NCBI RefSeq assembly: GCF_001029505.1
Contig: NZ_LEKH01000001.1
Location: 124,001 to 188,000, forward strand
Direction of reading: 5' to 3'
Length of the DNA stretch: 64,000 bases
Origin: Rubrobacter aplysinae
GTDB taxonomy: Bacteria; Actinomycetota; Rubrobacteria; Rubrobacterales; Rubrobacteraceae
A model generated the notes under the pieces. It was not told the origin of the DNA, ran no database searches, and saw only the letters and a program-made list of their open reading frames with translations. Position numbers and translations under genes: made by a program. Of the stretch, positions 3,401-48,812 are shown one piece after another. Position 1 is the first letter of the stretch. Each line of letters starts with the position of its first letter.

Positions 3401-3603
3401 AAGTGCGCTCCGTCTTGTAGCGGTTTTCTAGTGGCCGGACGTAGACGGTGGGCCGACAGCGTGCTGTCGTCAACCGCCCCGCTTAGATTATTCTTATTCT
3501 GCGCGCCTTTCAACGAAAAGAGGCGCGGCCGTGGTCTACAGGGGTTGCTGCAGGATTACCGGTACGAATGACCGGTACGAATGAGTGGTTCGGAGGGTCG
3601 TGG

Positions 3604-4122
3604 ATGGGTGGAGAGCCTGAGGCGTGTTACGGGTGTGGCGCGCTGGTGCCCCGCAGTGAGAAGGGGACGACGCACGAGTATATCGGGGCCTCGCCGGGGT
3701 GCTGGTCCGTATACGGAAAGGTGCTGGAGCGCGAGTACGCCGATTACGAACGCTACTTCGACATCCACAGGCTCACCGTGGACGCTTACGCCGCCCAGCA
3801 TCCGGGCGAGCCCTCGCGCAGGGCCACGCAGTCTGTGGCGGTGCACCTGATCCGGCTCCACCTCATGCTCGAGCTTGGGCTGCCGCCCGAGCGGGCAAAT
3901 GCCGGGATGCAGCGAGTCTCCTCGAAAGGGGGTTTCGTGTGGCTGGAGCCGCCGGAATCTCCCGGCTGGATCACCGTGCTCCACGTACGAGAGGCGCGGG
4001 ATCCGGCGGAACACGAGGCGCGGGTGAGGGAGTGGGCCGGGTCGGTGTGGGAGGCGTGGTCGGGGCATCACGAGGCCATACGCCGGTGGGCGGCTGTTGC
4101 CTTCCGTGCATGGGGCATATAG
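3604..4122 (+). CDS. DUF5946-like protein
   Basis: Protein of 172 residues with an N-terminal CYGCGALVPR motif (a possible half zinc site), a second GCW cysteine, and a tryptophan-rich helical C-terminus. It resembles the uncharacterised DUF5946 group; function unknown. I chose ATG 3604 because GGAGGG lies 7 nt upstream and the protein then starts right before the conserved Cys motif. Two earlier ATGs lie within a perfect 13-bp tandem duplication (3558-3570 and 3571-3583): the one at 3568 is in frame, the one at 3581 is not. Thirteen nt separate it from the chorismate mutase gene, so cotranscription is likely. Confidence 0.75.
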   Translation: MGGEPEACYGCGALVPRSEKGTTHEYIGASPGCWSVYGKVLEREYADYERYFDIHRLTVDAYAAQHPGEPSRRATQSVAVHLIRLHLMLELGLPPERANAGMQRVSSKGGFVWLEPPESPGWITVLHVREARDPAEHEARVREWAGSVWEAWSGHHEAIRRWAAVAFRAWGI

Positions 4123-37098: not shown

Positions 37099-37857
37099 AT
37101 GATCGACTATCATCTGCACGTCGTCGCCCACGCCGACCGTCCCATGACGGCCGGGAACATACTCGAATACTGCAAGGTCGCCCGGAGCCGGGGCATCCAG
37201 GAGATGGGCATTACCGAGCACGACCGCTACCTGGAGGACGTAGACCTCGACGCGTTTAGGGAGGCGGGGGAGTCGTCGGAGGATGTGAAGCTCAGGCTTG
37301 GGATAGAGGTGGATTTCGTGCCGGGCAATGAGGCGGAGATGGACCGCGTTGCGGAGGCGCTGCCCTACGATTACGTGATCGGCAGCGTCCACCGGGTCGG
37401 CGGTGAGGAGGTGGACAACCCCCGCGATAAGGACGTGTACGAGAAGTGGGACACCTACGAGCTTTATGAAGCGTACTACGAGAACGTGCGGGCGGCGGCG
37501 CTCTCGGGACGGTTCGAGGTGATCGGCCACCCGGATCTCATAAAGATATTCCGCACCTACCCGGACCGCGACATCACCCCGATGCTCGAAGAGACCGCCG
37601 ACGCGGTTGCGGAGGCCGGGGTCGCGGTGGACGTAAACTCGGCGGGCTTGCGCAAGCCGGTCGGTGAGATCTACCCGGCCCGGAACCTGTTAGAGATGTT
37701 CCACCGGCGGGGCGTCCCCATCATCCTCTCATCCGACGCCCACGCCGCCGCGGAGGTCGGTGCGGGTTACGATAAGAGCGTGAAGCTGGTAAAGGAAGTG
37801 GGCTACACCGAGGTCGCGACCTTCGAGAACCGTGAGAGGAGGGCGCTCGCGCTGTGA
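37099..37857 (+). CDS. hisK: Histidinol-phosphatase, PHP family
   Basis: PHP-fold metal phosphatase of 252 residues with a full metal-ligand set: DYHLHVVAHAD at the start, TEHDRYLED, GIEVDFVPG, GSVHRVGG, GHPDLIK and SSDAHAAAEVG. This pattern fits the HisK/HisJ group that dephosphorylates L-histidinol phosphate, the second-last histidine step; a polymerase-type PHP or other phosphoesterase role cannot be excluded. CTGGGGGAG precedes the ATG, next to the decaying 10-bp repeat. The stop overlaps the GTG start of the AlaX gene by 4 nt. Confidence 0.87.
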   Translation: MIDYHLHVVAHADRPMTAGNILEYCKVARSRGIQEMGITEHDRYLEDVDLDAFREAGESSEDVKLRLGIEVDFVPGNEAEMDRVAEALPYDYVIGSVHRVGGEEVDNPRDKDVYEKWDTYELYEAYYENVRAAALSGRFEVIGHPDLIKIFRTYPDRDITPMLEETADAVAEAGVAVDVNSAGLRKPVGEIYPARNLLEMFHRRGVPIILSSDAHAAAEVGAGYDKSVKLVKEVGYTEVATFENRERRALAL

Positions 37858-38621
37858 GGGGGGAGAAGGAGGAGGCCGGGACCAGAGAGCTGTTCCTCGA
37901 AGACGCCTATCTCCGGGAGTTCGACGCCCGGGTACTGAGGATAGCCGGGCGTGAGGTGTGGCTGGAACGTACCGCCTTCTGTCCGGGAGGCGCGGGCCAG
38001 CCTCACGACAAGGGGAGCCTCGGGGTCGGGCCTATCGAGGCTCGGGTGGTGGACGTGCAGCGCCGCGACGGTGAGATCGTCCACGTCACCGACAACCCCA
38101 TCCCGGAGACGGTTGGCCGTCTTGTGGGGGTCCTCGACTGGGAACGGCGCTACTCCCACATGCGTTACCACACCGCTCTGCACGTCCTCTGTGCCGTGCT
38201 GGGGCGGGATTTCGGCGTGGAGGTTACCGGAGGAAAGATATACGCCGACCGGGCCCGCGTGGACTTCTCACCGCCGGAGGACCGGGGCGAATGGACGCCG
38301 GAGATCGCCGACGAGATAGAGCGGGCCGCCAACCGCGAGCTCGCGAAAGAGAGCCCGGTAAGCGTGCACGAGCCTCCGCCGGATACGGAAGAGCCTGCCC
38401 ACGAGAGCTTTGCGTCAGACCGGCCGGACCCCGTGCGCGTCGTCGAGATACCGGGCACGGATGCCCGCCTCGATGCCGGGCTCCACGTCGCGAACACGGA
38501 AGAGGTGGGCCGTATACGGATCACACACCATAAAAATCGCAATAACCGCAAGAGCTTCGGGAGCAAGGTCCGCGCCACGGGCACCGGCGAGCGCGTGGAG
38601 TTCGTCCTGGAGGATCTATGA
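37854..38621 (+). CDS. Alanyl-tRNA editing protein AlaX-like
   Basis: Stand-alone editing-domain homologue, 255 residues, that in its family hydrolyses Ser-tRNA(Ala) or Gly-tRNA(Ala). N-terminal beta domain with FCPGGAGQPHDKGSL; catalytic zinc motif HTALH near residue 103; GGKIYADRARVDF; and a C-terminal IPGTDARLDAGLHVANTEEVGRIRI where AlaX proteins normally have a Cys-x-x-x-His (as in CGGTH). Here the Cys is replaced (DAGLH), so one zinc ligand may be lost. GTG start overlapping the PHP stop; stop overlaps the next ATG (ATGA). Confidence 0.88.
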   Translation: MRGEKEEAGTRELFLEDAYLREFDARVLRIAGREVWLERTAFCPGGAGQPHDKGSLGVGPIEARVVDVQRRDGEIVHVTDNPIPETVGRLVGVLDWERRYSHMRYHTALHVLCAVLGRDFGVEVTGGKIYADRARVDFSPPEDRGEWTPEIADEIERAANRELAKESPVSVHEPPPDTEEPAHESFASDRPDPVRVVEIPGTDARLDAGLHVANTEEVGRIRITHHKNRNNRKSFGSKVRATGTGERVEFVLEDL

Positions 38622-39229
38622 CGAGGATGACGAGGCTGCGCCCGTTGAGAAAACTGCTGCTCTCGGCCCTGCTACTCGTACTACTTTCAGCCCTTGTGGC
38701 GGGATGCGGCCAGGGGGAGACGGACGTCGGAGAGACGGCCTCCGGCTCGGACGGAGCCGGGAGCGCGCCCCTGACGAGGACGGTAGGCGCCGAGGAAGCC
38801 GACCTGCCCGACAGCATATCCACGGGTGAGATCCCGCAGCCCCCCCTACAGAACCGCCCGGTCGTTATCCGGAGCTCCGGGGGAGAGGTGCGGGTCCGGG
38901 CCGAGATCGCCGACGACGACCCGGAGCGCACCCGGGGCCTTATGGCCCGCGAGGAGCTCGGAGAGAACGAGGGCATGCTCTTCGTCTTCGACTCGGAGCG
39001 GTCCCTGAACTTCATTATGGAAAACACCCTGCTCCCGCTCTCCATCGCTTACATAGACTCTAGGGGCAGCATCGTGGACATCCGGCGGATGCAGCCGCTC
39101 TCCGAAGACACCTACCCCTCCGCCGAGCCCGCGATGTACGCCCTGGAGGTGAACCAGGGCTTCTTCTCCGAGCGCGGCGTCGAGGTGGGCGACGAGGTGG
39201 ATCTCCCGTCCACTGTGGTGGAAGGGTAG
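38618..39229 (+). CDS. DUF192-family lipoprotein
   Basis: 203 residues. A basic start and hydrophobic signal end in a lipobox (LVAGC, Cys about residue 29), then a disordered Gly/Ser/Glu linker and a DUF192 domain (about 85-195: VRVRAEIADDDPERTRGLMAREELGENEGMLFVFDSE, FIMENTLLPLSIAYIDSRGSIVDIRRMQP, ALEVNQGFFSERGVEVGDEV). DUF192 domains are small beta-barrels of unknown role found as secreted or lipid-anchored proteins. Third gene of a tightly overlapping operon with the PHP phosphatase and AlaX. Confidence 0.88.
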   Translation: MTRMTRLRPLRKLLLSALLLVLLSALVAGCGQGETDVGETASGSDGAGSAPLTRTVGAEEADLPDSISTGEIPQPPLQNRPVVIRSSGGEVRVRAEIADDDPERTRGLMAREELGENEGMLFVFDSERSLNFIMENTLLPLSIAYIDSRGSIVDIRRMQPLSEDTYPSAEPAMYALEVNQGFFSERGVEVGDEVDLPSTVVEG

Positions 39230-39310
39230 ACTACTCTCGTTAAAGATAGTACAATCGGTCCATAGAACCTGGCGGGGCGCTACGGCGCCTGAGTAGGAGG
39301 GAAGGGTCCG

Positions 39311-39322
39311 ATGGACCACTAG
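39311..39322 (+). CDS. Possible minimal leader ORF (Met-Asp-His)
   Basis: ATG GAC CAC TAG, 8 nt after AGGAGGG (39296-39302), a near-ideal ribosome site. A ribosome at the stop would reach the base of hairpin A of the leader. A second tiny ORF with GGGAGGG upstream (39474-39488, Met-Gln-Ser-Met) lies nearer the stress protein gene. Either could be chance. Confidence 0.3.
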   Translation: MDH

Positions 39323-39362
39323 GCGGAAAACCTTACGGCCGCGCCGCCGGGCGCGGCCCGTA

Positions 39363-39418
39363 CCGGGCCGGAGATCGCCCGCCCTAACCGGGTGGCTTCT
39401 CCGGCCCGGATATTTTTG
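39363..39418 (+). terminator. Strong intrinsic terminator
   Basis: Perfect 12-bp stem (39363-39374 with 39398-39409), 23-nt loop, then ATATTTTTG. It lies 134 nt after the DUF192 stop and 97 nt before the universal stress protein ATG. Confidence 0.85.
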
Positions 39419-39514: not shown

Positions 39515-39967
39515 ATGGGTTATCTACCGGAGAAGATACTGCTGGCTTCCGACGGCTCCGAGGACGGCATTCGGGCTTGCCGGACGGCGGCGGAGATGTC
39601 GGAGAGCTTCGGGGCGGAGCTGCACGTCGTCCACGTGGGTTTGCAGTGGTACCTCGTGGTGCGAGATTACATGAGTCCCGAGCAGTACGAGAGGCTCAAG
39701 GAGGAGCGCCAGGAGGTGCTCGACGCGCAGGTTTCGGAGATAGAGGGTCACGGCGGCCGGGTGACCGAGGCCCACCTGAGGATGGGCCGCAGGGTCGACG
39801 AGGAGGTCATAGACCTTGCCCGTGAGATCGGGGCCGGCCTCATAGTCGTCGGCAGCCGGGGCGCGGGGAGCCTGAGCCGGGCCCTGCTCGGCAGCGACTC
39901 CAACAACATCGTGCATCACGCGTACTGCCCGGTGCTCGTGGTGCGCGGCGGAGAGGCCGAGGGCTAG
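39515..39967 (+). CDS. Universal stress protein (UspA family)
   Basis: 150-residue ATP-binding USP domain. It opens with EKILLASDGSEDGIRACRTA and ends with the nucleotide motif GSRGAGSLSRALLGSDSNNIVHHAYCPVLVV, i.e. G-x2-G-x9-G-S, so ATP binding is expected. The 39515 start matches the family N-terminus; upstream in-frame codons overlap the leader terminator. Its stop overlaps the stop of the convergent GalT-like gene by 4 nt. The leader with a terminator and tiny ORFs suggests transcription attenuation. Confidence 0.93.
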   Translation: MGYLPEKILLASDGSEDGIRACRTAAEMSESFGAELHVVHVGLQWYLVVRDYMSPEQYERLKEERQEVLDAQVSEIEGHGGRVTEAHLRMGRRVDEEVIDLAREIGAGLIVVGSRGAGSLSRALLGSDSNNIVHHAYCPVLVVRGGEAEG

Positions 39968-48519: not shown

Positions 48520-48812
48520 CCGTGCCGCGCTAAGCGGGGAAATAGCGATGCCCTGTACCTGCGATTCGCTCTAGCAGGGCCTAACCCCCCGCCCGAGGCG
48601 ACCCGTGTTCGGTAGAAACCGGAGACGCCGACGAGGATGGTCGGGTCCCGGGCAATGAGGCCCCATGAACCGTGTCAGGACCGGAAGGTAGCAGCACTAA
48701 GTGGGTAACCGCATGTGTCTGAGGACAGCTCGACCGGAGTCGGCGCCCGGGAATTTCGCCGGGTTCGGGCGGCTCATTGCGAGCCTCACGTCGACGGCGG
48801 GGTGCGCGGCAT
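48520..48812 (+). ncRNA. ffs: Signal recognition particle RNA, large bacterial type with Alu domain
   Basis: The S-domain core GTCAGGACCGGAAGGTAGCA (from about 48675) is diagnostic of SRP RNA. The 5' part (GCTAAGCGGGG, then ATGCCCTGTACCTGCGAT, then CTCTAGCAGGGCC) strongly resembles the Alu domain of the Bacillus scRNA as I remember it. The ends pair (TGCCGCGC 48523-48530 with GCGCGGCA 48804-48811). Internal arms include GCCGAC 48627-48632 with GTCGGC 48739-48744. TTTATTTTC follows the 3' end as a terminator tract. The length of about 290 nt fits the large class with Ffh and an HU-like Alu binder. Lies between tRNA-Ser and dnaX. Confidence 0.9.

Follow-up and report, generated by a model that had tools for sequence, protein, structure and literature searches.

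We found that a short element in the genome of Rubrobacter aplysinae is probably an independent, terminator-ended small-RNA gene that is specific to the Rubrobacteraceae and carries a translated minigene, with ribosome engagement as its most likely mode of action. (Coordinates are those of the window, the stretch of 64,000 nucleotides that we analyzed, and all features of the element are on its + strand.) Judged by sequence only, the element has the marks of a stand-alone small RNA gene: its own promoter, its own terminator, and independence from its neighbors. Its anatomy and this independence are well supported by comparisons across genomes. We infer that it is transcribed separately, binds ribosomes, and is translated for a few codons. 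That the RNA acts by engaging ribosomes, or as a dual-function RNA, is speculative and is suggested by analogy.

Anatomy of the element in the window

The element begins with a sigma-70-like promoter (39227-39255), which has a -35 box (TAGACT, 39227-39232), a 17-nt spacer, and a -10 box (TACAAT, 39250-39255); 0.1 such promoters would be expected in shuffled sequences. Because of this promoter, the RNA probably spans from about 39262 to about 39417. (We placed the transcript start 6-7 nt past the -10 box, give or take about 2 nt.) The initial annotation had proposed a short terminated RNA of about 150 nt, and the positions of the -10 box and the terminator agree with this, as they predict a transcript of about 155 nt (39262-39417). 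The annotated interval was 39250-39418, and its first bases are probably promoter rather than RNA. So although the minimum-energy fold pairs 39257-39263 with 39311-39317, this pairing lies mostly outside the predicted transcript.

Within the transcript, a 5' hairpin with a UACG loop is predicted by folding (39275-39290). It is followed by a Shine-Dalgarno site, AGGAGGG (39295-39301), and by a tiny open reading frame, ATG GAC CAC TAG (Met-Asp-His-stop, 39311-39322). The stop codon is 14 nt from hairpin A, whose core arms (39337-39345 and 39350-39358) form 9 perfect pairs and which extends into a longer hairpin, P2 (39334-39362). Hairpin B (39354-39360 with 39364-39370) has 7 pairs. Terminator C (39363-39417) has a stem of 12 perfect pairs (39363-39374 with 39398-39409) and a T-tract, ATATTTTT (39410-39417). 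Apart from the 5' hairpin and the extension of hairpin A into P2, these features had been described in the initial annotation, and all were confirmed, as was the overlap of the three hairpins. The region folds better than 200 of 200 dinucleotide shuffles (z = -4.4).

The annotation also interpreted the element. It held that hairpins A and B, and likewise B and C, are mutually exclusive and that the position of a ribosome, or a ligand, decides whether the downstream gene for a universal stress protein (usp) is transcribed. As explained below, the structured element is real, and its proposed link to usp is not conserved.

Conservation across the Rubrobacteraceae

A DNA search of 40 Rubrobacteraceae genomes gave matches in 23. 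We built a covariance model (R1) from an alignment of 23 homologues (A1); in the window, R1 matches 39270-39417 with 110 bits. R1 found the element in 32 of the 40 genomes, from 12 of 13 genera. At least two near-complete genomes (G012 and G016) had no copy in the R1 search. Usually there is one close copy per genome, and some genomes have one to seven additional, divergent copies of about 160 nt. (We sorted copies into close and divergent by their bit scores and sequences, and the intermediate copies L113 and L108-L110 fit neither group well.)

In a phylum-wide draw of 297 genomes with stricter filters, the matches listed were all from Rubrobacteraceae, and none of them came from the roughly 270 sampled genomes outside the family. 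A pattern scan for the core motif across 84,980 named species returned 25 stretches, and 22 of these were from Rubrobacter (including R. marinus), Rubrobacteraceae, or other actinobacteria. The three non-Rubrobacter matches look like chance, with poor R1 scores, and the two of them that we inspected lack a matching terminator.

No Rfam family scored above its gathering threshold in this region (the best E-value was about 2), in keeping with the earlier remark that the element matches no known riboswitch class. (Elsewhere in the window, at 48525-48791, there is a large bacterial signal recognition particle RNA, Rfam RF01854, with 138.8 bits.) A literature search, which lay mostly outside subscription journals, gave no paper on such a small RNA or riboswitch in Rubrobacter. 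As far as Rfam and the searched literature show, the element appears to be undescribed as well as specific to the Rubrobacteraceae.

Several parts of the element are invariant or nearly so in the 23-sequence alignment: GGAGG (fully invariant), AAG, CC, the TG of the start codon, and the terminator arms CGGGY..CCCG. The promoter is conserved too. A -10-like TAnnnT box, with at least four of six consensus positions, lies upstream of the Shine-Dalgarno site in 28 of 28 close copies and in 24 of the 25 divergent copies scored, against a background of about 5%; these sequences are related, so there are fewer independent observations than the counts imply, and two divergent sequences without a start codon to serve as an anchor are omitted.

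The structure is conserved as well. In P2, the sequence varies while the pairing is kept, with compensatory changes at all six counted pairs. Over the whole structure, 44 cells changed on both sides, versus a mean of 14 in shuffled alignments, and every slid version scored lower. A third helix, P1 (GUUGU/ACAAC), has standard pairing in 78% of cells, with two pairs changed on both sides. In most copies, though not in all, the minigene lies inside P1; the window instead has the UACG hairpin at the site of P1's 5' strand. The Shine-Dalgarno site could be masked by a CCUC/GAGG hairpin, which fits 88% of cells.

In the terminator stem, 95% of cells are paired and four pairs never vary. Its consensus is CCGGGYCGG..CCGGCCCGG, and in both close and divergent copies the stem is kept in sequence as well as in pairing. 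Terminators do not need a conserved stem sequence, so this conservation could mean that the stem has a second role.

The search of related genomes that had been set beforehand as a check on hairpins A and B thus gave a split answer: hairpin A is conserved, and hairpin B is not. Seven pairs of B form in the window only. Among the other 22 aligned sequences, four have six contiguous pairs and 18 have three to five. By this alignment, hairpin B belongs to the window's copy and not to the element family, and the proposed mutually exclusive topology holds only as an overlap within the window. We also considered a different antiterminator, in which GGUCCG in the leader pairs with CGGGYC in the 5' arm of the terminator. 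The two stretches can pair in 21 of the 23 aligned sequences, where both sides are near-invariant. We rejected this candidate: in most divergent copies the leader has GGACCG or GGAACG, which loses the central pair. Overall, we found no alternative pairing of leader and terminator that is kept across both the close and the divergent groups, and so no conserved set of mutually exclusive hairpins of the kind that an attenuator would have.

Neighboring genes and divergent copies

Upstream of the element in the window, on the same strand, are genes with a PHP domain, an alanyl-tRNA-editing-like (AlaX-type) domain, and a DUF192 lipoprotein (37099-39229; Pfam). The -35 box overlaps the stop codon of the DUF192 gene, and C is a strong terminator, so one might ask if the DUF192 operon simply ends here in an ordinary terminator, next to an open reading frame that arose by chance. 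We consider this extremely improbable. The element persists, with its own promoter, behind unrelated upstream genes, which already contradicts such an explanation. In 8 of 28 close copies the upstream gene is even divergent, so the element is more than the tail of a preceding operon.

Downstream in the window is the usp gene (Pfam Usp), on the same strand, with its ATG at 39515, 97 nt past the T-tract. This arrangement is not conserved. Among the 27 close copies with readable DNA, the next gene is on the opposite strand in 24. (These are hand-checked counts; the automatic gene caller made antisense errors, such as at L027, L034, and L037, which we corrected by hand.) A same-strand gene follows in only three close copies, and they encode Usp (in the window), a sulfatase-like protein (L112), and an XRE-type regulator (L027). 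The convergent neighbors vary and include PCP_red, DUF498, dihydroxy-acid dehydratase, and Hsp20-like genes. In some close copies, the convergent reading frame ends just 6-10 nt beyond the T-tract, which leaves no room for a regulated gene.

The usp genes themselves lead to the same conclusion. Of 30 usp loci examined, the model found the element at one, the window's own; the other 29 had no convincing match. The nearest usp orthologue (78% identity) is in genome G011, where the element lies on another contig. As for a promoter of its own, the DNA upstream of usp, aligned with that from G011, showed no clear conserved promoter. Because the association with usp is not kept in relatives, the reading of the element as a cis-acting attenuator is unsupported. 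We rejected the proposal that it is a transcription attenuator of usp in R. aplysinae: a same-strand usp does follow, and the hairpins do overlap, but with the element at only one of the 30 usp loci examined, hairpin B not conserved, and the downstream orientation not conserved, we think this very unlikely. Instead, the element is probably a neighbor of usp and not its switch. A general caution is that, when a terminator and a tiny open reading frame lie beside a gene of interest, they do not necessarily control it.

The divergent copies are harder to interpret, and their role is the main uncertainty about the element family as a whole. About half of them are followed by a same-strand gene for a small protein, and the rest by convergent genes. 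The small proteins form three paralogous families (VADMA..RQA, RSKTD..PC, and HYE..WHP), without Pfam matches. They recur at L096 (after the element at 3461-3622), L102, L090, L104, L105, and L107. One genome, G035, has seven divergent copies (L086, L087, and L088-L091), and two of these lie in the same orientation on a single 4.6-kb contig (L087, 430-592 and 2557-2719), which suggests a local duplication. The divergent copies may be leaders, or they may be hitchhikers in duplicating gene islands.

If they are leaders, then divergent copies would attenuate the paralogous small-protein genes, and close copies, including the window's, would be attenuators or relics. The order of promoter, minigene, hairpin, and terminator is indeed the architecture of an attenuator, and the same-strand small-protein genes fit as well. 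But the close copies are better conserved, the gene that follows them is nearly always convergent, as it is for many of the divergent copies, and no alternative pairing is shared by the two groups. We judge this explanation to be quite unlikely.

The tiny reading frame and similarity to known systems

The tiny open reading frame is very probably under selection, as judged from its conservation. In all 53 of the elements that have a start codon, an in-frame stop follows 2-12 codons later; these elements are related, so the count overstates their independence and should be read as about ten lineages agreeing, each with roughly a 1 in 3 chance, by our estimate at this base composition, of having a stop within 12 codons. 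In the other frames, a stop occurs within 12 codons in 25 of 53 elements for +1 (12 of these are simply ATGA) and in about 15 of 53 for +2. The start codon is ATG, GTG, or CTG, so that its first base varies and TG is kept, and all three stop codons (TAG, TAA, and TGA) are used, at several in-frame distances. Close copies encode MD*, MDH*, MDS*, MDR*, MDC*, or MDY*, or read GTG-GAC-stop, or have 11-12 codons. Divergent copies mostly encode M-[N/S/Q/K/Y]-R-K-x-x-(N)-stop. (In L101, AGG replaces the start codon, and L107 is a degenerate copy.) From the conservation of starts and stops, we infer that the minigene is translated. A caveat is that the second codon (Asp) of the close copies sits in a possible hairpin, GUCC-GAU-GGAC, which could also explain the conservation of that codon.

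This bears on another explanation, that the element is a stand-alone small RNA that acts by base pairing or protein binding, with GGAGG..AAGGGUCCG..GGAC as the pairing or binding site and with incidental start and stop codons. In favor of this, that stretch hardly varies, a small hairpin is possible within it (98% of cells are paired), and the terminator stem likewise keeps its sequence. On the other hand, the variation follows the rules of codons, both at the start and among the stops. Also, the usual partners of base-pairing or protein-binding small RNAs are Hfq and CsrA, and neither was detected in any of the 40 Rubrobacteraceae genomes, although both were detected in control genomes. (For the same reason, we rejected a CsrA sponge or an Hfq-dependent small RNA.) Because of the codon-like variation and because these partner proteins were not detected, we favor ribosome engagement over base pairing, which we consider unlikely.

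If ribosome engagement is correct, then transcription would start at a promoter just past the upstream gene and stop at the element's own terminator, giving a separate RNA of about 150 nt. This RNA would offer ribosomes a strong binding site and a minigene that is 2-12 codons long (Met-Asp-stop or Met-Asp-x-stop, or Met-x-Arg-Lys-x-x-(Asn)-stop in divergent copies), and in many copies the short CCUC/GAGG hairpin could close the ribosome-binding site. Ribosomes would initiate on the minigene, and engaging them would be the RNA's purpose. Engagement might have its effect through free ribosomes or through charged tRNA, as for the bar minigene of phage lambda, or it might instead control the stability or availability of the RNA itself. 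A more specific proposal, which is tentative, is that this is a chromosomal, family-wide small RNA that engages ribosomes on its minigene to tune translation or to sense initiation capacity in trans, as a cellular counterpart of lambda bar. If so, one of the smallest reading frames possible lies at the center of a free-standing RNA gene that is maintained across a whole bacterial family, and what is conserved in the function of a cellular RNA can be the initiation or termination of translation on a few codons instead of a protein product.

The element resembles three kinds of known systems. First, ribosome-mediated attenuators, such as those of the ABC-F resistance genes lmo0919 and vmlR, have the same order of promoter, Shine-Dalgarno site, very short reading frame, hairpin, and intrinsic terminator (candidate upstream reading frames are described in PMC8632094). 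In contrast to the element, they precede a conserved regulated gene; most close copies face a convergent gene instead, and hairpin B is not conserved. Second, dual-function small RNAs such as SR1 from Bacillus and VcdRP from Vibrio are independent small RNA genes that also carry a reading frame. What these genes encode are true small proteins (29 residues for VcdRP; PMC8672173), whereas the element's 2-12 codons are too short for an ordinary protein.

Third, the bar minigenes of phage lambda are known to be toxic when peptidyl-tRNA hydrolase is deficient. The bar minigene, AUG-AUA-UAA, encodes a dipeptide, and nascent chains of less than about seven residues are prone to release as peptidyl-tRNA (PMC8012679). 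By sequence, the element is similar: a short RNA in which a start codon, a few codons, and a stop lie behind a ribosome-binding site. Unlike bar, which is encoded by a phage, the Rubrobacteraceae element is chromosomal and conserved across the family, and the second codon of its close copies is Asp.
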